Shown here in pieces: positions 7,674 to 44,711 of a DNA stretch of 64,000 bases. The first letter of the stretch is position 1. Each line of letters opens with the position of its first letter. Under the pieces are notes generated by a model that was given only the letters and a program-made list of their open reading frames with translations, did no database searches and was not told the origin of the DNA. The stretch covers positions 1-64,000 of the forward strand of contig CALMLW010000045.1 in the NCBI GenBank assembly GCA_937868015.1, read 5' to 3'. This stretch comes from an uncultured Synergistaceae bacterium. Its GTDB lineage: Bacteria > Synergistota > Synergistia > Synergistales > Aminiphilaceae. The translations under genes and the position numbers were made by a program.

Positions 7674-9064
7674 AGCTCTTGGGCCTTTTAGCTCCTTTAG
7701 GGGTCTTTGGGGCTTATACGCTGGCGGTGATCCTGCTTACCGGCCCCGGCTTTGTCTGGAATGAGAACCGCCGTCGTTTTTATCTGGCGGGGCGAGGGGC
7801 GGGGCTCTGGGCCTCTGTGGCCACTTTTGGCGCCACGTGGATGAGCGCGGCGTCTCTGCTGGGTTATCCGGAATCTTTCTTCTGGGATGGCATGGTGGCC
7901 TTTGGAGGGGCGGTGAATGGCTGGCTTCTGGGGCTTTTGCCCTTGCCGTGGATCGTGGCGGTGTTACGCCGATCCCGGGCCCTTTCTCTGCCGGAGTGGA
8001 TCGGGAAGACCTTCGACGATCCTCGGCTCCGTCGTTTGACGGCGGCGGCGCTTCTGTTGGCTTATGTTCTGTATATTCTCATCCAGTTTCGATCCTTCGG
8101 AGGGGCGGTGTCCCATCTGCTGGGCATTCGTTACGCCGTGGGGGCCTCCGCCCTGGTCTATCTTTTTGTGCTCTACACGACCTTCGGGGGCATGCCTTCG
8201 GTGATTCGCAGCGATGTGCTGAATTTCTGGCTCATCGTCGTGGGAGTGACGGTGGCAGCGGTGGTGGCCGTGGGTCGCGTGGGCGGCGTGGAGGTCCTGG
8301 TCCGACGCTTGGCGACGGAGGCCCCAGAGCTTTTGAATCCCGCCGCGCCGTGGGAAGTGCTAGGGGGTATGGCGGCCATGACGCTCGGATGGGGGCTGGG
8401 AGTGGCGGCAAATCCTCAGTACGCCGTGCGGATCCTCTCCGCCCGCTCTCCTCGGGTGGCCCTGGGGATGCTGGCCATCGTGCCCTTTTTTCTCGGGGTG
8501 ATCTATCTGGGACTTACGGCCTTTGCGGCGACGGGGCGACTGGTGGCGGCCCCGGTGCTTCGTCAGGGAGGAGAGGCGGCCTTTCTCCACATGGTGAGCA
8601 TGGTGTTGCCCCCTGCCCCTGCGTCGCTCTTTTTGGTGGCCCTCATCGCCGCAGCGGTGAGCACGGCGAATTCTCAGCTGCTGTTGGCGGCCTCGTCTTT
8701 TTGTTATGATCTGATGGACCGATGGAGAACTACGCTGCCGGAGGACATCTTCCTGTTCCGCAACCGTCTGGCGGTGACGGTCATCGCCACTTTGGCGCTG
8801 GGAGGAAGTCTGTTGCCGTTTCCAGACATCCTCACTGTGGGGCGCTTCAGCTGGACCGTGGTGGCGCTTTGCTTTTTTCTTCCCCTCTTTTGGCCCCTTT
8901 CCGGGCGTCGCCAGGGGCTTTTCGAGGCCATGGGGCTTTCTCTCGTGCTCCACGGAGTGTTGGTCTTCGGGTTGCACCTACCGCCCGAGGGATCCCTGTT
9001 GCCTTCGCTCTTGCTGGAACGTCTGTCGTGGCGGTGGTTTTCTCGGAAGGGGGAGGAGGCCTGA
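7670..9064 (+). CDS. sodium:solute symporter family protein
   Basis: A 464-residue integral membrane protein with about 12-13 helices and the layout of the SSS family (PutP/PanF/SglT type), which import amino acids, sugars or carboxylates with sodium. The segment beginning GRGAGLWASVATFGATWMSA near residues 41-60 is the characteristic first-helix region of the family. The ATG at 7670 lies in an ATGA overlap with the small upstream frame. The next gene, a histidine kinase, starts one base after the stop, so the symporter is in the operon of the kinase, activator and RpoN genes and its substrate may be what that system senses. Confidence 0.88.
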   Translation: MKLLGLLAPLGVFGAYTLAVILLTGPGFVWNENRRRFYLAGRGAGLWASVATFGATWMSAASLLGYPESFFWDGMVAFGGAVNGWLLGLLPLPWIVAVLRRSRALSLPEWIGKTFDDPRLRRLTAAALLLAYVLYILIQFRSFGGAVSHLLGIRYAVGASALVYLFVLYTTFGGMPSVIRSDVLNFWLIVVGVTVAAVVAVGRVGGVEVLVRRLATEAPELLNPAAPWEVLGGMAAMTLGWGLGVAANPQYAVRILSARSPRVALGMLAIVPFFLGVIYLGLTAFAATGRLVAAPVLRQGGEAAFLHMVSMVLPPAPASLFLVALIAAAVSTANSQLLLAASSFCYDLMDRWRTTLPEDIFLFRNRLAVTVIATLALGGSLLPFPDILTVGRFSWTVVALCFFLPLFWPLSGRRQGLFEAMGLSLVLHGVLVFGLHLPPEGSLLPSLLLERLSWRWFSRKGEEA

Positions 9065-9065
9065 C

Positions 9066-10346
9066 ATGGGGCGGCCGCGACACATGGAAAGCCAGATAAA
9101 GGCTTTGGTGGTGGCGGGAGTGCTTTTGCTCACGGCGGTCACGCTGGCGGTGTCGATTGGCCAGGGATTTGCCCTTAGGTGGGAGGAGAACCGGAGATGG
9201 CTATATACGGTACGATCGGTCCTAGAGGCATTGGATCGCCCCCAAGCGGAAATAGTGGTGGCCATGCTCCGACCGGCATGGAGGGTTTTTCCGGGAACGG
9301 CGGGGAGATCGGGGGGAGAGATCTTGCGCTCCCGGGATGGGGAGATGTGGGCGGCGTTCCCTAACGACGAAGTCCTGTGGGAGGAGTTGTTGGAGAGCAA
9401 TCGACCCCTTCTGGTGGTGGCGCTGGTGACGCTGTTGCTCGTGTTGGAGATATCGATTTTTTGGGCGTACGCCATCGTGCGACCCCTGCGGCGCCTGGCA
9501 TGGGCCTGTCGTGATATGGGATCGGGCCGGTGGCCCGACCTGGGGCCGGAGGGGGCGTCGGGGACGTATGAGATCGCCACGCTCCACGAGGCCTTTCGTC
9601 ATATGGTGGACCGCCTCCAGCAGTGGCAACGGGTGGAGCGACAGGTGGGACGCATGGAGCGACTCGCTGCGCTGGGTCAGGTGGTGGCAGGGGTGGCCCA
9701 CGAAGTACGGAATCCTCTGGCGTCCCTTCGCATTCACCTTGATCTATTGGAGGTAGACGTGCTCCCGGCGGGACAACCCTCGCTACGCGTTCTTGGCGAT
9801 GAAGTGGATCGATTAAACCAGATCGTGTCTCAACTTTTGGCCTTTTCCCGCCCCCGCCCCCCCATAGGAGGACCGGTGGACCTGGGAGAGGTGGTGTCCT
9901 GGTGCCACCAGATGGTGCGAGATCGCATGTCGCGGCAGGGGGTTTCTTGGCGAGAGACGGGCTTCGACGGGGCAAGACCAGTGCCAGGAGATGCGGCTCA
10001 GTTGAGGCAGATGCTTTTGAATCTGGTGCTCAATGCCCTGGATGCCATGCCTCGGGGCGGAGAGCTCCATGTGGGGACGCGCTACGGAGAAGACGATGGG
10101 CCGGGGGGGGTGCGCCGAGCGGCGCTGTTTTTGAGCGTGGAGGATTCCGGGGAGGGTATAGCTTCGGAGCTCCTGCCCAGACTTTTTGATCCTTTTTTTA
10201 CGACCCGCCCCGAGGGTACTGGGTTGGGATTGGCGTTGGTGCACCGCATCGCCGAGCTCCACGGTGGAGCGGTGGATGTGGTTTCATCTCCGGGGCGGAC
10301 AATTTTCACCGTCACGTTGCCCGAGAGAGAAGGAGACGCCCCATGA
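9066..10346 (+). CDS. membrane sensor histidine kinase (NtrB-like pairing)
   Basis: 426 residues: membrane helix about 11-33, a periplasmic domain of about 80 residues, membrane helix about 114-136, a HAMP-like linker, then a HisKA domain with phospho-acceptor His212 in AHEVRNPLAS and a HATPase_c domain (N-box NLVLNALDAM, G1 EDSGEGI, G2 GTGLGLALV). It should autophosphorylate and pass phosphate to the NtrC-type regulator encoded immediately downstream, whose ATG overlaps this stop (ATGA). The signal sensed by the periplasmic domain is unknown; the upstream symporter suggests an organic substrate. Confidence 0.93.
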   Translation: MGRPRHMESQIKALVVAGVLLLTAVTLAVSIGQGFALRWEENRRWLYTVRSVLEALDRPQAEIVVAMLRPAWRVFPGTAGRSGGEILRSRDGEMWAAFPNDEVLWEELLESNRPLLVVALVTLLLVLEISIFWAYAIVRPLRRLAWACRDMGSGRWPDLGPEGASGTYEIATLHEAFRHMVDRLQQWQRVERQVGRMERLAALGQVVAGVAHEVRNPLASLRIHLDLLEVDVLPAGQPSLRVLGDEVDRLNQIVSQLLAFSRPRPPIGGPVDLGEVVSWCHQMVRDRMSRQGVSWRETGFDGARPVPGDAAQLRQMLLNLVLNALDAMPRGGELHVGTRYGEDDGPGGVRRAALFLSVEDSGEGIASELLPRLFDPFFTTRPEGTGLGLALVHRIAELHGGAVDVVSSPGRTIFTVTLPEREGDAP

Positions 10347-11686
10347 TGCGCATGTGGATTGTGGAGGATGAGGCGGGGCTTTCCCAGGGACTCGCCCGGG
10401 CCTTTGAGCGCGACGGGTACGCGGTGCGGGTGCTGGACCGTCTGGGGGAGGTGCGCGGCGCCTTGGCCCAGGAACGGCCGGATGTGGTGCTCTTGGACAT
10501 TCGGCTTCCGGACGGAGATGGGTTGGCCGCCCTGCCCCATCTGCTCCGGGAGGCCCCGGAGGCGCGGGTGGTGGTGATGACCGCCTTTGGAGATTCGTCC
10601 CTGGTGGTGCGCGCCATCCGGGAGGGGGCGTGGAATTATCTGGACAAACCCTTTCCTCTGGAGGCGGCCCGCAACATGGTTTCCCGGGCGGTGGAGTCCC
10701 TGGAGCTTTCCCGGCGGGTGGCCCGTCTTCGGGGGGAGTCCCTTCCGCTGGTGGGGAGTTCCGCTGCCATGGAGAGGGTCCGGGCCTTTGTGGCCAAGGT
10801 GGCCCCTTTTCGGGATCTGAACGTGCTTCTCATAGGGGAAAGTGGTGTGGGGAAGGAAGTGGTGGCGCGGATGTTGCACGCTGCTTCGGGGGCTCGGGGG
10901 GATTTCGTGGCCCTGAACTGCGCGGCGGTGCCCGAGGCGTTGCTGGAGTCCGAGCTTTTCGGGTACCGCCGGGGGGCCTATACCGGGGCCGGGCAGGACA
11001 AAGAGGGGCTGGCGGAGACCGCAGCGCAGGGGACTTTGTTTTTGGATGAGATCGGCGACATGCCTCTGGTACTGCAGGGGAAGATGTTGCGCTTCCTGGA
11101 AACGCGTACCCTGCGCCCCTTGGGATCCACGAAGGAGATCCGTCTGTCGCTACAGGTTATGGCGGCCACTTGCGTGGATCTAGAGCGCCGAGTGGCCGAT
11201 GGAACGTTTCGGCGGGATTTGTATTTTCGAATCGCCATGCTACCGCTGGTGATTCCTCCGCTACGGGACCGAGAAGGGGATGTGAGGGAACTTCTGGAGT
11301 CGTTTTTGAAGGAGTTCGCCCTGAAACTTAATCGACCTTGCCTCCAGGTCACTCCAGAGGTGGAAGAGGCCCTACGGCACTACGCCTGGCCGGGGAACGT
11401 CCGGGAGCTTCGAAACCTGGTGGAGCGGCTCTATATCCTTAGGGATAGAGAAGATGGGTTGGTGCGTCTCGGGGATTTGCCGGAGGAGATGTTGGAGCCC
11501 CTTCCCCAGGAGTGCCTTGAGGGGATCCGCGAAGGGGGACTGGTCCAGCGGCTCGACGACTACGAGCGCCGCCTCTTGCGGGAAGCGTTGGAGGAGGCGG
11601 GGGGCAATCGCACCCGGGCGGCCTCCGCGCTGGGAATATCTCGATTCGCCCTGTTGCGTCGCCTCCAGCGCCATGCCCTCGAATAG
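10343..11686 (+). CDS. sigma-54-dependent NtrC-family response regulator
   Basis: 447 residues in three parts: a receiver domain with phospho-acceptor Asp52, an AAA+ domain with Walker A GESGVGK (165-171) and the sigma-54 contact loop GAYTGA (211-216, a variant of GAFTGA), and a C-terminal Fis-type helix-turn-helix (about 420-447). It should bind upstream activating sequences and open sigma-54 promoters. It overlaps the kinase gene by four bases and the rpoN gene by 14 bases. The candidate -24/-12 promoter at 13033-13048 makes the downstream NRAMP and 5-oxoprolinase genes likely targets. Confidence 0.95.
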   Translation: MMRMWIVEDEAGLSQGLARAFERDGYAVRVLDRLGEVRGALAQERPDVVLLDIRLPDGDGLAALPHLLREAPEARVVVMTAFGDSSLVVRAIREGAWNYLDKPFPLEAARNMVSRAVESLELSRRVARLRGESLPLVGSSAAMERVRAFVAKVAPFRDLNVLLIGESGVGKEVVARMLHAASGARGDFVALNCAAVPEALLESELFGYRRGAYTGAGQDKEGLAETAAQGTLFLDEIGDMPLVLQGKMLRFLETRTLRPLGSTKEIRLSLQVMAATCVDLERRVADGTFRRDLYFRIAMLPLVIPPLRDREGDVRELLESFLKEFALKLNRPCLQVTPEVEEALRHYAWPGNVRELRNLVERLYILRDREDGLVRLGDLPEEMLEPLPQECLEGIREGGLVQRLDDYERRLLREALEEAGGNRTRAASALGISRFALLRRLQRHALE

Positions 11687-12887
11687 GCCTTCGCTTCTCC
11701 AGGGTCCCCGGCTGACGACGGCCCTGCTGCCCCTGCCTCTCCTTTTGCCCCGTATAGCCCTGGCTTCCTCTCCGCTGGAAGGGCTCACCCGGGATCTAGA
11801 AGACTTGCTGGCTTCTAACCCTCTGGTGAGAGTGATCCCCCCCGGGGGCGAGATGGGAGACTCCTCGGAGAGCGAAGAGAACGATGAGGAGAGGATCCCG
11901 GAAGATCTTCTTTCGCTGGACGACCACTTGCGTAGGCAACTCGCCGAGGATCCCCTAGATGGTTTTGATTTCGACTCATCCCAGCTGGGGGAGACCCTAG
12001 ACCCCCGGGGATATCTCAACGTGCCCCTGGTGCCCTGGGGGGTTCATCTCGGCCTTTCGCCGGAGGAAGCCCCCCGGGCTCTGGCGGCGTTGCAGGAGTG
12101 GGCGGACCCTCCGGGGCTTTTTGCGCGAGACTTGACGGAGTGCCTGCTGATTCAGCTTCGCCGGAAGCTTGGTGAGGAGGGAGATGGGGGGCGTATCCTA
12201 CGGGAGGGTCGAGAGGACCTGGTACGGGGAGACCAGCACACCCTGGCGCGCCGTTTAGAATGGCCTTCGGAGCGCCTTCAACGGGCGTTGAAAGAGCTCC
12301 AGGCCTTGGATCCCCATCCGGGGTACGCTTTTCGCAAGACGGTGATGGTACGGCCGGAGCTCTTTTTCCGCCCTTTAGGCCCGGGGAAGGAGCTTTCCGT
12401 CCATCTGGCGGAAGAAAACCTGCCTCGGCTGGCGCTGGAGGCAAAGGGTCGCTCCCCAGGGGAGAGCGGCTACGATCACGCCGCTTGGCACGAGGCTCGC
12501 GCCGTTTTAGGGGCCCTGGCTCAGCGCTACCGGGGAAGGGTGGAGGTGGGAAGGTTTCTGGCGAAACGACAACGGGCGTACCTCATGGGAGATCTTCCCG
12601 CGCCGGAGCCCCTGGTGTTGGCCGATCTTCACCGAGAGATGGGTTATCATCCGAGCACGCTCTCCCGGGTGCTACGCTCCACCTGGGCCGTCACGCCCCG
12701 GGGGACGGTGCTTTTGGGGCACCTTCTCTCCCGGCCGCTCCAAGGGCGCCCGGATCTTTCTGTGGCGGCGTTGCGGCACCTTCTTCGGCAAGCCCGGCAC
12801 GAAGGACGCTCCTGGGCGGAGGTGGCCCGGGAGCTGGCCCTTTCTCCCCGGACGGTGGCCTGGCACGGCCTCCGGTGCGGGGGGTAG
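11673..12887 (+). CDS. rpoN: RNA polymerase sigma-54 factor, short form
   Basis: The ATG at 11673 lies inside the end of the activator gene and gives a 404-residue protein, shorter than the usual 430-500. The N-terminal 50 residues correspond to region I but lack its usual glutamine richness. The core-binding region follows, and the C-terminal helix-turn-helix and RpoN-box region are present but atypical: the box is usually ARRTVAKYRE, while here the end reads LSPRTVAWHGLRCGG. A sigma-54 gene overlapping its own activator is unusual. No other sigma-54 gene lies in the window. A terminator follows at 12910. Confidence 0.85.
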   Translation: MPSNRPSLLQGPRLTTALLPLPLLLPRIALASSPLEGLTRDLEDLLASNPLVRVIPPGGEMGDSSESEENDEERIPEDLLSLDDHLRRQLAEDPLDGFDFDSSQLGETLDPRGYLNVPLVPWGVHLGLSPEEAPRALAALQEWADPPGLFARDLTECLLIQLRRKLGEEGDGGRILREGREDLVRGDQHTLARRLEWPSERLQRALKELQALDPHPGYAFRKTVMVRPELFFRPLGPGKELSVHLAEENLPRLALEAKGRSPGESGYDHAAWHEARAVLGALAQRYRGRVEVGRFLAKRQRAYLMGDLPAPEPLVLADLHREMGYHPSTLSRVLRSTWAVTPRGTVLLGHLLSRPLQGRPDLSVAALRHLLRQARHEGRSWAEVARELALSPRTVAWHGLRCGG

Positions 12888-12909: not shown

Positions 12910-12934
12910 CCGTGCGGAAAGCGCACGGTTTTTT
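12910..12934 (+). terminator. rho-independent terminator after rpoN, possibly also an enhancer palindrome
   Basis: CCGTGCG (12910-12916) pairs with CGCACGG (12922-12928) around a 5-base loop, followed by six T. The 7-N5-7 geometry resembles an activator-binding palindrome, and its centre lies about 140 bases upstream of the predicted start of the sigma-54 promoter at 13033. Confidence 0.8.
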
Positions 12935-13032: not shown

Positions 13033-13048
13033 CGGCAACTTTTTTGCA
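13033..13048 (+). promoter_or_regulatory. candidate sigma-54 (-24/-12) promoter
   Basis: The 16-base element CGGCAACTTTTTTGCA aligns with the RpoN consensus (TGGCACG-N4-TTGCW), keeping the invariant GG and GC with exactly ten bases between them and the full TTGCA block. The start of transcription is expected near 13059, about 30 bases before the NRAMP-family gene ATG. Confidence 0.65.
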
Positions 13049-13090
13049 TATACAAGGGTAGGCAGTCATCCTTGTGTGGAGGTGTACGGC

Positions 13091-14326
13091 ATGGCGGAGG
13101 AAAAGGGTACGGCGGGGGCTCCTCTGGGGGCGGCGGAAGATCGGAAGGGGACGCTGGCGATTCTCTTGGGGGCGGCGTTTCTCATGGCGACGTCGGCCAT
13201 CGGGCCGGGGTTTCTCACCCAGACGGCGGTATTTACGGAAAAGCTAAAGGGAGCTTTTGCCTTTGCCATTCTGGCGTCGATTCTGATTGACGTGGTGGTG
13301 CAGCTCAATATCTGGCGCATCCTGGCGGTTTCTGGCCTTCGGGCCCAGGATCTGGCGAACAAGGTGCTCCCCGGGCTGGGATATTTCTTGGCCTTCGCCG
13401 TGTCGTTGGGGGGGCTGGTTTTCAACATCGGCAACGTGGCGGGGGCGGCCATGGGGCTCAACGTTTTGGCGGGGGTGCCTCTGATTCCCGGGGCGCTCCT
13501 CTCGGCGGGGCTGGCGGTGGTGCTCTTTTTGAGCAAGGAAATGGGACGGGCCATGGACCGTTTTGCCCAGGTCCTCGGGTTTGTCATGATCGCCATGGTG
13601 TGCTACATGGTCTTTCGCACCAATCCTCCCGTGGGAACCGCGCTCAAGGAAATGGTGCTGCCTTCCACGGTGGATTGGATGATCGTCCTGACGTTGGTGG
13701 GGGGCACGGTGGGGGGGTATATTTCTTTTGCGGGGGCCCATCGCATCATCGACGCAGGGATCACCGGCCCCCGGGCCCTGGGGGACATCAGCCGAGGGGC
13801 GGTGAATGCCATCGGCATCACGGGGCTCATGCGCTTTCTCCTCTTTTTGGCCATCCTGGGCGTGGTGGTCATGGGGACTCCTCTGGATGCGGCCAATCCT
13901 CCGGCTTCGGCGTTCCGCATCGGCGCCGGAGAGCTGGGATATCGAATCTTTGGCGTCATCCTGTGGGCGGCGGCCATCACGTCGGTGGTAGGGGCTTCCT
14001 ACACGTCCGTCTCGTTCTTGAGAACGCTTGCCGCTCCCATCGAGAGCTATCATCGCTGGTGGATCATCGGGTTCATCGCGGTCTCCACGGCGATCTTTGT
14101 CACGGTGGGAAGGCCGGTGACCCTGCTTATCTTCGCTGGCGCCATCAATGGACTCATTCTGCCCCTGGCCCTCATTTCGGTCCTGTTGGGGGCCCACCGT
14201 AAAAACATCGTGGGAGATTACAAACACCCGATGTGGATGTCCGTGGCGGGGTACGTCATGGCGGCCTTCACGCTCTGGATGGGGTTCACTTCCCTGGGCC
14301 CTATCTTCACCATGTTCCAAAAGTAG
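13091..14326 (+). CDS. NRAMP-family transporter (YcsG-like)
   Basis: 411 residues with about 11 membrane helices. The DMATSAIGPGFLTQ-like start (ATSAIGPGFLTQ, about 35-46) matches helix 1 of NRAMP proteins, which usually carry the metal-binding Asp-Pro-Gly; here the Asp is absent (IGPG), as in the non-metal YcsG-like branch. The ATG follows GGAGGTG. In Bacillus subtilis, ycsG sits with ycsF, ycsI, kipI and kipA, the same partners as here, which suggests transport of 5-oxoproline or a related compound rather than a metal. That role is inferred. A terminator separates it from pxpB, so full read-through would be partial. Confidence 0.83.
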   Translation: MAEEKGTAGAPLGAAEDRKGTLAILLGAAFLMATSAIGPGFLTQTAVFTEKLKGAFAFAILASILIDVVVQLNIWRILAVSGLRAQDLANKVLPGLGYFLAFAVSLGGLVFNIGNVAGAAMGLNVLAGVPLIPGALLSAGLAVVLFLSKEMGRAMDRFAQVLGFVMIAMVCYMVFRTNPPVGTALKEMVLPSTVDWMIVLTLVGGTVGGYISFAGAHRIIDAGITGPRALGDISRGAVNAIGITGLMRFLLFLAILGVVVMGTPLDAANPPASAFRIGAGELGYRIFGVILWAAAITSVVGASYTSVSFLRTLAAPIESYHRWWIIGFIAVSTAIFVTVGRPVTLLIFAGAINGLILPLALISVLLGAHRKNIVGDYKHPMWMSVAGYVMAAFTLWMGFTSLGPIFTMFQK

Positions 14327-14345
14327 TTCGGAGGGTATACCATGG

Positions 14346-14382
14346 GGAACGGGAGACGCGAACCTCCCGTTCCATTCTTTTT
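14346..14382 (+). terminator. terminator between the NRAMP-family gene and pxpB
   Basis: A perfect 10-bp stem (14346-14355 with 14364-14373) with an 8-base loop is followed by a T-rich tract. No promoter is obvious between it and pxpB at 14398, so it may set a lower level of expression for the enzyme genes. Confidence 0.82.
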
Positions 14383-14397
14383 GAAGGGGGAAGGACT

Positions 14398-15144
14398 GTG
14401 GACGGTCCGACGAAACCCCGGGTGCTTTTTGCCGGAGATCGATGCGTGGTGGTGGAGTTCGGCACGGCCATCGATCGCGCCGTGAATGCCCGGGTGCAGC
14501 AGTTACGGCGAGATCTAGAGGCGAGACCCCTGGGGGGGATCACCGAGCTGGTCCCCACCTATCGATCGCTGGCGGTGTACTTTGATCCCCGCCGGGTGGG
14601 GGAAGGGCTGCCGGAACTCCTGGCAAGCCGAGCGGCGAGCCTGGAGGGTAGTGCAGAAACGGGGGGGCGGTGTGTGGTGATCCCCGTGGGATATGGGGGA
14701 GAGCGGGGCCCCGATCTGCCCGAGGTGGCACGCCACGCGGGGCTTTCGGAAAGTGAAGTGGTCTCCCGCCACACGGGGCGCGATTATTACTGTTACATGC
14801 TGGGGTTCACTCCGGGGTTTGCCTACCTGGGAGGCATGGATGAAACGCTGGCGACGCCCCGACTGGCCAACCCCCGCACGAAGATCCCTGCGGGAAGCGT
14901 TGGGATCGCCGGGGCCCAGACGGGCATTTATCCCATCGACAGCCCCGGCGGGTGGCGGCTCATCGGCCGGACGCCCCTACGGCTCTTCGATCCCGACAGG
15001 ACTCCTCCCACGCTGCTGGATGCGGGGCTCTGGGTGCGCTTTGTGGCGGTGGATGAGGGGGAGTACGCCGCCGTGACCGACCAGGTGCGCCGAGGGGCCT
15101 ACGTTCCCGAGGTCCGAGACAGGGAGGGAAACCATGAGGCTTGA
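14398..15144 (+). CDS. pxpB: 5-oxoprolinase subunit PxpB
   Basis: 248 residues of the KipI/PxpB family (carboxyltransferase domain subdomain C/D type). With PxpC and PxpA it hydrolyses 5-oxo-L-proline to L-glutamate using ATP. Conserved features include GFTPGFAYLGGM (about 138-149) and the GGWRLIGRTP segment near 188. The GTG at 14398 is chosen because GGGGGAAGG precedes it and the family starts at this point; longer frames would run into the terminator. It overlaps pxpC by 11 bases. Confidence 0.92.
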   Translation: MDGPTKPRVLFAGDRCVVVEFGTAIDRAVNARVQQLRRDLEARPLGGITELVPTYRSLAVYFDPRRVGEGLPELLASRAASLEGSAETGGRCVVIPVGYGGERGPDLPEVARHAGLSESEVVSRHTGRDYYCYMLGFTPGFAYLGGMDETLATPRLANPRTKIPAGSVGIAGAQTGIYPIDSPGGWRLIGRTPLRLFDPDRTPPTLLDAGLWVRFVAVDEGEYAAVTDQVRRGAYVPEVRDREGNHEA

Positions 15145-16192
15145 GGTGCGGCGTCCGGGGTTGCTCTCCACGGTGCAGGACGGGGGGCGTTGGGGGTACC
15201 AGGGAAAGGGCGTTCCCGTGGCGGGGGCCATGGATCTACCCGCCTTCAGGCGAGGAAACCTCGTGGCGGGAAACGAGCCGGAAGAGGCGGCACTGGAGAT
15301 CACCGTCCTGGGGCCCACCCTCGGCGTCCTTGAAGGAGAAGGGATCGTGGCGGCGGCGGGGGCCGACCTGGGCTTTGCCCTAAACGGGGCTCCGGCGCCG
15401 CTTTTGACGGCGGTGCGGGTGCGCTCCGGGGACGAGATATCCTTTGCGGGGCCCCGGGGAGGGGGATGCCGGGGGTATCTCTGCTTCGCCGGAGGAGTGG
15501 CGGTGCCTCCGGTGATGGGGAGTCGCTCCACCTTTCTTCGAGGAGCCCTGGGGGGCTTTCATGGACGGGCGTTGCGCGCGGGCGACGTGCTGGAGACCGG
15601 CGACCTCCCCCCCCTCGCCTTCGCGGGGGAGGGTTTTTCCTGCCCCCCCGATCTGGATCTCGACCGGTCGGCGGATCGCCCCCTGCGGGTGGTGCCGGGC
15701 CCCCAGGATGATGCCTTCACCGCCGAGGGGCGGGAAATTTTCTTTTCTTCCGCCTATCGGGTCACCGACGAGGCGGACCGCATGGGGTATCGGTTGGAGG
15801 GGCCTCCGGTGGCCCATTCTCGAGGGGCGGACATCGTTTCCGATGCCGTGCCCCTGGGGGCCATCCAGATTCCGGGGCACGGGCGCCCCATCTGCATGCT
15901 GGCGGATCGTCAGACCACGGGGGGCTATCCGAAAATTGCCGTGATCTGTTCCGACGACGTGGGGGTCCTGGCCCAAAGGATGGCGGGCGATACGGTACGC
16001 TTCGTGGCGGTGACCTTTGCCGAGGCCCTGCGATGGGCCAAGGAAGAGGGCGATGCCTTGGAAAATCTGCGACGGGCCCGGAGTACTTGGCGATCGAGGC
16101 CCCGATTCCCGGCGGGATGGGATGCTTCGGGAAGATGGACCCTTACGGTGGGGGAAAGGGCCTACGCGGTGACGTGGAGGGCCCGGAGTTGA
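15134..16192 (+). CDS. pxpC: 5-oxoprolinase subunit PxpC (biotin-dependent carboxyltransferase family)
   Basis: 352 residues of the KipA/PxpC family. The N-terminus (EVRRPGLLSTVQDGGRWGYQ) is the family signature, and the later DRMGYRLEG (about 215-223) and LADRQTTGGYPKIA (about 257-270) are also conserved. No biotin-attachment site is expected in this family. It is translated from an ATG overlapping the end of pxpB, which fits a stoichiometric complex. The last 40 residues are richer in Arg and Trp than the rest. Confidence 0.92.
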   Translation: MRLEVRRPGLLSTVQDGGRWGYQGKGVPVAGAMDLPAFRRGNLVAGNEPEEAALEITVLGPTLGVLEGEGIVAAAGADLGFALNGAPAPLLTAVRVRSGDEISFAGPRGGGCRGYLCFAGGVAVPPVMGSRSTFLRGALGGFHGRALRAGDVLETGDLPPLAFAGEGFSCPPDLDLDRSADRPLRVVPGPQDDAFTAEGREIFFSSAYRVTDEADRMGYRLEGPPVAHSRGADIVSDAVPLGAIQIPGHGRPICMLADRQTTGGYPKIAVICSDDVGVLAQRMAGDTVRFVAVTFAEALRWAKEEGDALENLRRARSTWRSRPRFPAGWDASGRWTLTVGERAYAVTWRARS

Positions 16193-16221
16193 CGAAGGGG
16201 GTGGGGGAAGCCGTGGCGGTG

Positions 16222-16983
16222 ATGATGATGGATCTCAATAGCGACCTGGGAGAGAGCTTTGGCGCCTGGACCATGGGGGACGACGAGGCGGTGCTAGCTT
16301 CGGTGAGCTCGGCCAACGTGGCCTGCGGTTACCATGCGGGGGATCCCGAGGTCATGCTGAAGACCGTGCGGGCCGCCGCCCGGCGGAGCGTGGGGGTGGG
16401 GGCCCATCCGGGGTACCCCGATTTGGTGGGCTTCGGTCGGCGGAACATGGCTTGCTCTCCGGACGAGGTGTACGCCTTTACGCTTTACCAGATCGGGGCT
16501 CTGACGGCGGTCTGCCGGGCCTCCGGGGTGTCTCTGCGGCATGTGAAGCCCCACGGGGCCCTTTACAACCAGGCGGCCAAGGACCCACGATTGGCGGAGG
16601 CCATCGCCCGGGCGGTGAAGGACGGAGGCGAGGGGCTGATGCTGTTGGGGCTGGCTAATTCGGCCTTTGGGGGAGCGGCGGCGACGGTGGGGGTTCCCTT
16701 CGCGGCGGAGGCCTTCGCCGACCGGGCGTACCGGGCCGACGGCACCCTGGTGCCCCGGGGGGAGCCGGGGGCGGTGATCCACGACGAGTCCGTGGCGGCG
16801 GCTCGGGTGGTGCGCATGGCCACCGAAGGGGTAGTGGAGGCCATCGACGGCACCCTTGTTTCCCTGCGCCCCCATTCCGTGTGCCTCCACGGCGACACAA
16901 AGGAAGCGGTGACCATGGCACGGGAGGTTCGCCGGGCGTTGGAAGGCGCGGGCGTGGAGATTAGGGCTCTGGAGGTGCGGTGA
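16222..16983 (+). CDS. pxpA: 5-oxoprolinase subunit PxpA (LamB/YcsF family)
   Basis: 253 residues. The start [13 protein letters not shown], then [12 protein letters not shown] (about 34-45), [11 protein letters not shown] and [10 protein letters not shown] are the hallmark blocks of the LamB/YcsF family, whose His and Asp residues build the active site. PxpA is the hydrolytic partner of PxpBC. ATG at 16222 is preferred because GGGGGAAG lies nine to twelve bases upstream. Its TGA overlaps the ATG of the DUF1445 gene. Confidence 0.93.
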
Positions 16984-17783
16984 TGAAAAGCTTTTCCGAT
17001 ATGCAAGGCCTTTCTCCTAGGGAGATCCGGGAGATCATCCGTCGGGGGGAGTGGGACGCCCCCACGCCGGGGCTGGCTCCGGGGCATGTTCAGGCGAATC
17101 TGGTGATCCTCCCCCGGGAGTGGGCCTATGATTTTCTCGTCTTCGCGATGCGTAATCCCAAGCCCTGTCCCGTACTGGACGTGACGGAGCCCGGAGATCC
17201 CGAACCCCGGAAAATGGCCCCCGGAGGGGATCTGCGCACCGATCTGCCCCGATATCGAGTGTGGGAACAGGGCCAGTGTGTGGCGGAGCCCCGGGAGATC
17301 GGGGAGTATTGGCGGGACGATCTCGTGGGCTTTCTCCTGGGGTGCTCCTTCAGTTTCGAGGGAGCCTTGACGGAGGCCCGGGTGCCGGTGCGCCACATCG
17401 AGTGCGGATGCAACGTGCCCATGTACATCACCAACGTCCCCTGCGCCCCGGCGGGAAGGCTCTCCGGCCCTATGGTGGTGAGCATGCGTCCCATCCCCGC
17501 CTCCCTGGTACCCCGGGCGGTGCTGGCCACGGGGCGCTTTCCGGCGGTGCACGGAGCCCCCGTTCACGTGGGGGATCCCGGGGCCATCGGAATCGGCGAT
17601 GTGCAACGCCCGGACTTCGGCGATCCGGTGCCGATCCGGGAGGGGGAAGTACCGGTCTTCTGGGCCTGCGGCGTGACGCCCCAGGCGGCGCTCATGGCGT
17701 CTCGCCCCCCCTTCGCCATCACCCACGCCCCGGGGCATATGTTCCTCTGTGACCCCCGGGACTCGGATTTGGCGGTCTTCTAG
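16983..17783 (+). CDS. DUF1445 protein (YcsI / D-glutamate cyclase-like)
   Basis: 266 residues of the DUF1445 family, annotated as putative hydro-lyase. Visible family blocks are the early [28 protein letters not shown] (about 117-129) and NVPMY (about 142-146). The same domain forms the C-terminal part of mitochondrial D-glutamate cyclase, which converts D-glutamate to 5-oxo-D-proline. Position directly after PxpA, as in the B. subtilis ycs/kip locus, supports a step in glutamate/oxoproline interconversion. The ATG at 16983 follows GGAGGTG; a GTG at 16980 would add one residue. Confidence 0.85.
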
Positions 17784-44519: not shown

Positions 44520-44711
44520 TTTTTTTGCGTTTTATGGCGATCGGTCCCTGCAAAAAAGCTCCCTCACCGCCCTTTGATCGGGGAATCGTGGGAGGGATCG
44601 GAAGAGGACCCGCCTCGGCGAAGAGCCTTCGGTGGGCTCCGTCGCCCTGCAGGGCGGGGCCGACGAAAAAGGACGGGTACGGTCTCGCAGTTGAAAGGAG
44701 GAGCGCGGAAG

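Follow-up and report, generated by a model that had tools for sequence, protein, structure and literature searches.

The element at positions 13033–13048 of the DNA analysed (the window, 64,000 nt of a contig from an uncultured Synergistaceae bacterium) is, judging from its sequence and conservation, very probably a real sigma-54-type promoter. It is highly likely, on the same grounds, that it serves the operon at 13091–17783 within a self-contained module for 5-oxoproline use, which comprises the following features.

7682–9064, + strand: SSS-family sodium/solute symporter, the first cassette gene (Pfam SSS, 5.3e-39; position conserved)
9066–10346, + strand: membrane histidine kinase (Pfam HAMP, HisKA and HATPase; nearest NCBIfam models AtoS/ZraS, below their cut-offs)
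10343–11686, + strand: NtrC-type response regulator and sigma-54 activator with a GAYTGA loop (Pfam Response_reg, Sigma54_activat and HTH_8)
11673–12887, + strand: diverged sigma-54 (RpoN), 404 aa, RpoN box SPRTVAWHG (Pfam CBD 1.2e-28, DBD 2.7e-11)
12912–12926, no strand assigned: palindrome GTGCGGAAAGCGCAC, a probable enhancer (UAS); GTGCG-N5-CGCAC is perfect in most cassette genomes
13033–13048, + strand: -24/-12 (sigma-54) promoter element CGGCAACTTTTTTGCA (sequence; matrix score 29.28/29.92; 33/33 against 0/14 genomes)
13059, + strand: predicted transcription start (from spacing)
13078–13084, + strand: ribosome-binding site GGAGGTG (sequence)
13091–14326, + strand: NRAMP-related transporter of the PxpT/YcsG type, probable 5-oxoproline uptake (Pfam Nramp 4.5e-20; operon context; PMC13274462)
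14398–15144, + strand: pxpB, 5-oxoprolinase subunit (TIGR00370, above cut-off)
15134–16192, + strand: pxpC, 5-oxoprolinase subunit with carboxyltransferase A/B domain (TIGR00724 above cut-off; NF045499 below)
16228–16983, + strand: pxpA, 5-oxoprolinase subunit, LamB/YcsF (NF003814, above cut-off)
16980–17783, + strand: D-glutamate cyclase family protein (Pfam D-Glu_cyclase 6.5e-67; NF003969 above cut-off)

Direct reading of the plus strand confirmed the layout described in the original prediction. The GG (13034–13035) and GC (13046–13047) of the element lie ten bases apart, the spacing of a -24/-12 promoter, and the TTGCA block is complete. The operon ATG at 13091, expected some 43 bases downstream, lies 42 bases past the end of the element, with the anticipated room for a ribosome-binding site occupied by GGAGGTG, and the rpoN stop codon ends 145 bases upstream, at 12887, as stated. 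If the C of the GC is taken as -12, the spacing would place the transcription start 12 bases downstream of it, at about 13059. The tetranucleotide TRTA, just past the -12 element (13049–13052), is conserved in relatives though the sigma-54 consensus does not demand it. The predicted leader contains an inverted repeat, TATACAAGG...CCTTGTGTG (13049–13078); the 5′ leader hairpin folded no better than shuffled sequences (z -1.0).

The pattern YGGCA-N6-TTGCA was found once in the window, against 0.17 expected. The textbook consensus TGGCACG-N4-TTGCW fits the element with three mismatches, a level reached by 85 sites in the window where 73 were expected, so that by this consensus alone the element is unremarkable and scores at chance level. 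Agreement with the textbook consensus is a scoring criterion, not an absolute requirement for a sigma-54 promoter; since it was uninformative, evidence was sought from relatives. With a comparative matrix made from 32 orthologous promoters of the other 14 genera, the own genome being left out, the element scored 29.28 of 29.92 bits. The second-best site in the window, a likely terminator at 44549 on the minus strand, reached 17.14 bits, and the score of the element was not equalled anywhere in 25.6 Mb of Markov random sequence. The expectation that the element would outscore random sequence was thus borne out with the comparative matrix; it failed with the textbook consensus.

The genes for PxpA, PxpB and PxpC are all present in the window, as expected of a 5-oxoprolinase PxpABC. 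The gene next to the promoter had been called NRAMP-family. It is indeed NRAMP-related, but this does not imply metal transport: the protein resembles the PxpT/YcsG type, scores far under the cut-offs for MntH-type metal transporters (40.5 bits where 430 are required, and 24.4 where 50 are) and, as judged by eye, has GPGFLTQTAVFTEK in place of the DPGN metal motif. No convincing sigma-54 promoter was found ahead of the SSS-kinase-activator-rpoN genes. Elsewhere in the window, positions 1–675 hold seven tRNA genes in a row.

Eighty-one genomes of the order were searched with the NRAMP protein and for sigma-54. Only 28 of them contain rpoN, which nearly always adjoins the pxp operon. An RpoN profile run across the phylum was positive in 44 of 188 genomes and provided seven held-out genomes. 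The promoter precedes the NRAMP-like/pxp operon in all 33 Synergistota genomes whose cassette is intact (15 genera, six families), and in 7/7 of the held-out genomes, while it was found in none of the 14 genomes that have the operon without rpoN (33/33 against 0/14, Fisher p = 3e-12, a value that counts genomes, which are not phylogenetically independent). This distribution supports the prediction of a sigma-54 promoter and is in favour of its dependence on rpoN. Ahead of the operon, all genomes with an intact cassette have [AG]GCA[AG]-N5-[CT]TGC, mostly as exactly GGCAACTTTTTTGC; the conserved block, GGCAACTTTTTTGCWTRTA, has sharp borders and is flanked by unconserved DNA. The GC is invariant in the 33 sites, and the upstream dinucleotide is GG in 26 and AG in seven.

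The order of nine genes (SSS transporter, kinase, activator, RpoN, transporter, pxpB, pxpC, pxpA, cyclase) is conserved across families, and the conserved unit also includes, between the RpoN and transporter genes, the palindrome GTGCG-N5-CGCAC followed by the promoter. Outside Synergistota, the RpoN scan returned no cassette-type RpoN apart from that of a short MAG contig labelled Clostridia (L230); the remaining matches outside the phylum were weaker, and to proteobacterial RpoN.

Several relatives depart from this arrangement. One genome (G016, L161) has an intact operon and a broken cassette, with RpoN, activator and SSS genes in pieces, and has lost the element; a member of the same genus (G038) has both cassette and element. 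In G002 and G062 (L149, L155) there is no NRAMP gene, and the space between rpoN and pxpB holds transporter genes of the TRAP type, as read by eye from the translation; promoter and palindrome are retained ahead of the TRAP genes. In four further genomes (G023, G015, G064 and G043) additional genes lie between rpoN and the operon, and promoter and palindrome remain with the latter. G008 is an exception to the pattern: its rpoN adjoins pxpB, with neither the NRAMP gene nor the promoter there.

The protein encoded at 10343–11686 combines a receiver domain, an AAA+ domain with a GAYTGA loop and an HTH, as in a bEBP, and is the only strong PF00158 match in its genome. The functional link between promoter and rpoN, proposed on the basis of their proximity, was understated, because the cassette also holds this sole strong activator and a likely enhancer. 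Among the rpoN genomes of the 81, each has one strong Sigma54_activat match (>190 bits) per sigma-54, with the exception of G016. Nine mid-scoring PF00158 proteins were considered as extra activators and set aside. Seven lack a GAFTGA-type loop, the other two (G048, G043) have GAYSGM/GSYTGM loops, and none has an evident receiver domain by eye; since most lack the loop and similar proteins also occur in rpoN-less genomes, a role as sigma-54 activators is unlikely for them. Sigma54_activat-like AAA proteins of ∼340–540 aa, mostly without GAFTGA, were also noted at L327-L332, L334 and L335, and in an rpoN-less genome.

Genome-wide scans were done as pattern searches. Within its own genome the element has no second exact copy. 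Of the near matches examined there (two mismatches), one falls in a likely terminator and the others in long ORFs. An exact match to RGCAACTTTTTTGCW was found 22 times across 35 genomes (about 85 Mb), each time at the pxp operon. The motif was learned from operon sites, and the informative part is therefore that the exact motif is carried nowhere else. Canonical YGGCAY-N5-TTGCW sites in the cassette genomes numbered 204, as did those of the reversed-pattern control (summed by hand). The idea that the operon site is one among many sigma-54 sites was rejected for this lack of excess. The window genome is 83.8% complete and split into 354 contigs, and further targets may therefore have escaped the scans.

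These scans bear on the alternative that the promoter is genuine but that RpoN serves a wider regulon through looser promoters, as in most bacteria. Loose sites may exist, and G008 carries, before an amino-acid-permease-like ORF (C30, 84–99; L158), a near-perfect copy of the motif with one mismatch, on a contig that also carries the activator; this may be a second target. Such a regulon is nevertheless rather unlikely, given one strong activator per RpoN, canonical sites that do not exceed the control, own-genome near matches that fall in ORFs or a likely terminator, and the co-occurrence of rpoN with the cassette and operon locus.

The palindrome, centred ∼115 bases upstream of the promoter GG, is probably the enhancer bound by the activator, as its sequence and position suggest. 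Most cassette genomes have perfect copies at ∼70–170 bases, the rest (about nine) have half-sites, and some genomes have two copies. The sequence also folds as a terminator-like hairpin for rpoN (-20.5 kcal/mol, z -3.15), and six T follow it, so a dual role as enhancer and rpoN terminator is possible. That it is the terminator only, with the activator binding elsewhere, would agree with the good folding and the six T in the window, but seems improbable: where rpoN and the operon are set apart by other genes, the palindrome adjoins the operon promoter, and a second copy is found in some genomes. Two related searches were abandoned. One concerned another perfect palindrome of the own genome (C6:15711), which proved to be within a long ORF; the other used a combined palindrome-plus-GGCA pattern, which was too loose to help.

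The element might instead be an operator for a repressor or activator, in the form of a GCAA-N5-TTGC inverted repeat, with a nearby sigma-70 promoter in use. The invariant core GCA...TGC is symmetric, and the G ahead of it varies, being A in 7/33. Yet the middle, ACTTTTTT, is asymmetric and conserved all the same, the presence of the element tracks rpoN and its activator, the -24/-12 spacing fits, and the distance to the ribosome-binding site is near-constant in most genomes; we give an operator very little credence. Least credible of all is an extended -10 sigma-70 promoter (TGC-TTATAT or TGC-ATATAT) within the block, with an incidental GG...GC resemblance: the TRTA after the GC is conserved and some genomes have TGCTTATAT, but there is no conserved -35, conservation is equally strong 10–13 bases upstream of the TGC, and the motif is absent where rpoN is absent.

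The sigma-54 that would recognise this promoter is strongly diverged. RpoN passes the Pfam cut-offs (PF04963, 100.5 bits; PF04552, 43.9 bits) and falls below that of the NCBIfam equivalog TIGR02395 (134.7 against 277.35 bits; 391.5 for the canonical RpoN of G074). Its RpoN box, SPRTVAWHG, departs from the canonical ARRTVAKYR, five residues are missing ahead of the box, and the box of its relatives reads RT[VAIL]x[WYH]H. The RpoN profile matches the sigma-54 chains of solved polymerase complexes along its full length. When the predicted structure (pLDDT 81) was compared with the PDB, all 29 matches at E <= 0.001 proved to be sigma-54 chains, in agreement with a sigma-54 fold; the TM-score of the predicted structure is low (∼0.45), probably owing to flexible domain placement in the model. 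In 23 genomes RpoN is the least conserved cassette protein, with a median identity of 34%, against 40% for the kinase, 56% for the activator and 72% for the transporter.

A non-arginine residue follows the WH of the RpoN box in five of the seven genomes with AG promoters and in about four of the other 26, a comparison that ignores kinship. The first G of the -24 element and this residue of the box may thus co-vary, as far as these sequences indicate. Two genomes, G074 and G159, carry both a cassette-type and a canonical RpoN. The second, canonical RpoN of G159 is at C1 near 2052481; that of G074 (C6, L163) has a separate activator and genes of sugar-acid catabolism nearby, and canonical TGGCAC sites cluster near it. 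In G074 there thus seem to be two coexisting sigma-54 modules, with an activator and a promoter style apiece. We hold the chances to be even that the cassette RpoN represents a sigma-54 subfamily confined to Synergistota (as searched) and private to one operon, which, released from the demands of many promoters, would have become the fastest-diverging protein of its locus, and whose RpoN box and -24 element (GGCAAC/AGCAAC) would have drifted jointly, with a specificity that can coexist with canonical sigma-54, as in G074 and G159.

Given the sequence, conservation, co-occurrence, motif uniqueness and domain content observed for the module, we infer its binding, phosphorylation, activation, transcription start and signal as follows. 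Polymerase with the RpoN encoded upstream would bind 13033–13048, forming a closed complex that stays silent. On receiving a signal, perhaps sensed with the help of the SSS symporter, the histidine kinase encoded nearby would phosphorylate the adjacent NtrC-type activator. The latter would bind GTGCG-N5-CGCAC ∼115 bases upstream and open the complex through its GAYTGA loop, RNA starting at about 13059. Together, kinase, activator, sigma factor, enhancer and promoter would form one inherited unit, with the pxp operon as its main, and probably only, target.

Sigma-54 normally serves many promoters: in most cases it acts globally, works with several activators and has a DNA-binding region that is strongly conserved. 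In Synergistota, by contrast, a fast-evolving sigma-54 encoded beside the promoter described here appears, from the comparison of genomes, to have that promoter as its main target. Searches of the open-access literature gave no description of sigma-54 in this phylum, and what is new is the self-contained, perhaps single-operon, sigma-54 module. A unit of one sigma factor, one activator and one operon, with its promoter known in 33 species, would make it possible to study how sigma factor and promoter co-evolve under little other constraint, and could serve as a compact sigma-54 switch that may be orthogonal. The module would also assign a candidate regulator to 5-oxoproline (pyroglutamate) use in Synergistota.

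Parts of the module have counterparts in known systems. Pseudomonas CbrAB couples a kinase and a sigma-54 activator to an SSS-type transporter module; the SSS domain of CbrA is fused to the kinase, whereas the Synergistota cassette has separate SSS and kinase genes. As to the target, the NRAMP-related transporter and PxpABC correspond to the pathway genes of Bacillus subtilis ycsG and Corynebacterium glutamicum pxpTABC. In C. glutamicum, PxpT, an NRAMP-related YcsG homologue, is required for growth on 5-oxoproline, and TRAP systems are an alternative uptake route (PMC13274462), which the TRAP swap in G002 and G062 matches. The pxp operon of C. glutamicum is controlled by the GntR-type repressor PxpR (PMC13274462), whereas in Synergistota this control would fall to the sigma-54 cassette.

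Chlamydia trachomatis and Lactobacillus plantarum have small sigma-54 systems in which each genome encodes a single activator (PMC3162934), the mannose PTS being the known target in the latter (Stevens et al. 2010, as cited in PMC3162934). Those of Synergistota are alike in this respect but differ in that kinase, activator, sigma factor, enhancer and promoter lie in one conserved locus, in that the target is an amino-acid-derivative operon, and in that the sigma factor is strongly diverged. The DNA-binding sequence of sigma-54 is described as strongly conserved and its LPS-transport gene context as conserved in diderms (PMC3162934); neither holds for the cassette RpoN. Cereibacter sphaeroides has RpoN1, RpoN2 and RpoN3, each with a cognate activator and with promoter specificities that partly differ, at position -11 (PMC11999139). 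These are likewise specialised sigma-54 copies matched to particular activators, but they are paralogues in one genome that serve sets of genes, whereas the Synergistota genomes with the cassette usually have one diverged sigma-54 and one operon each.
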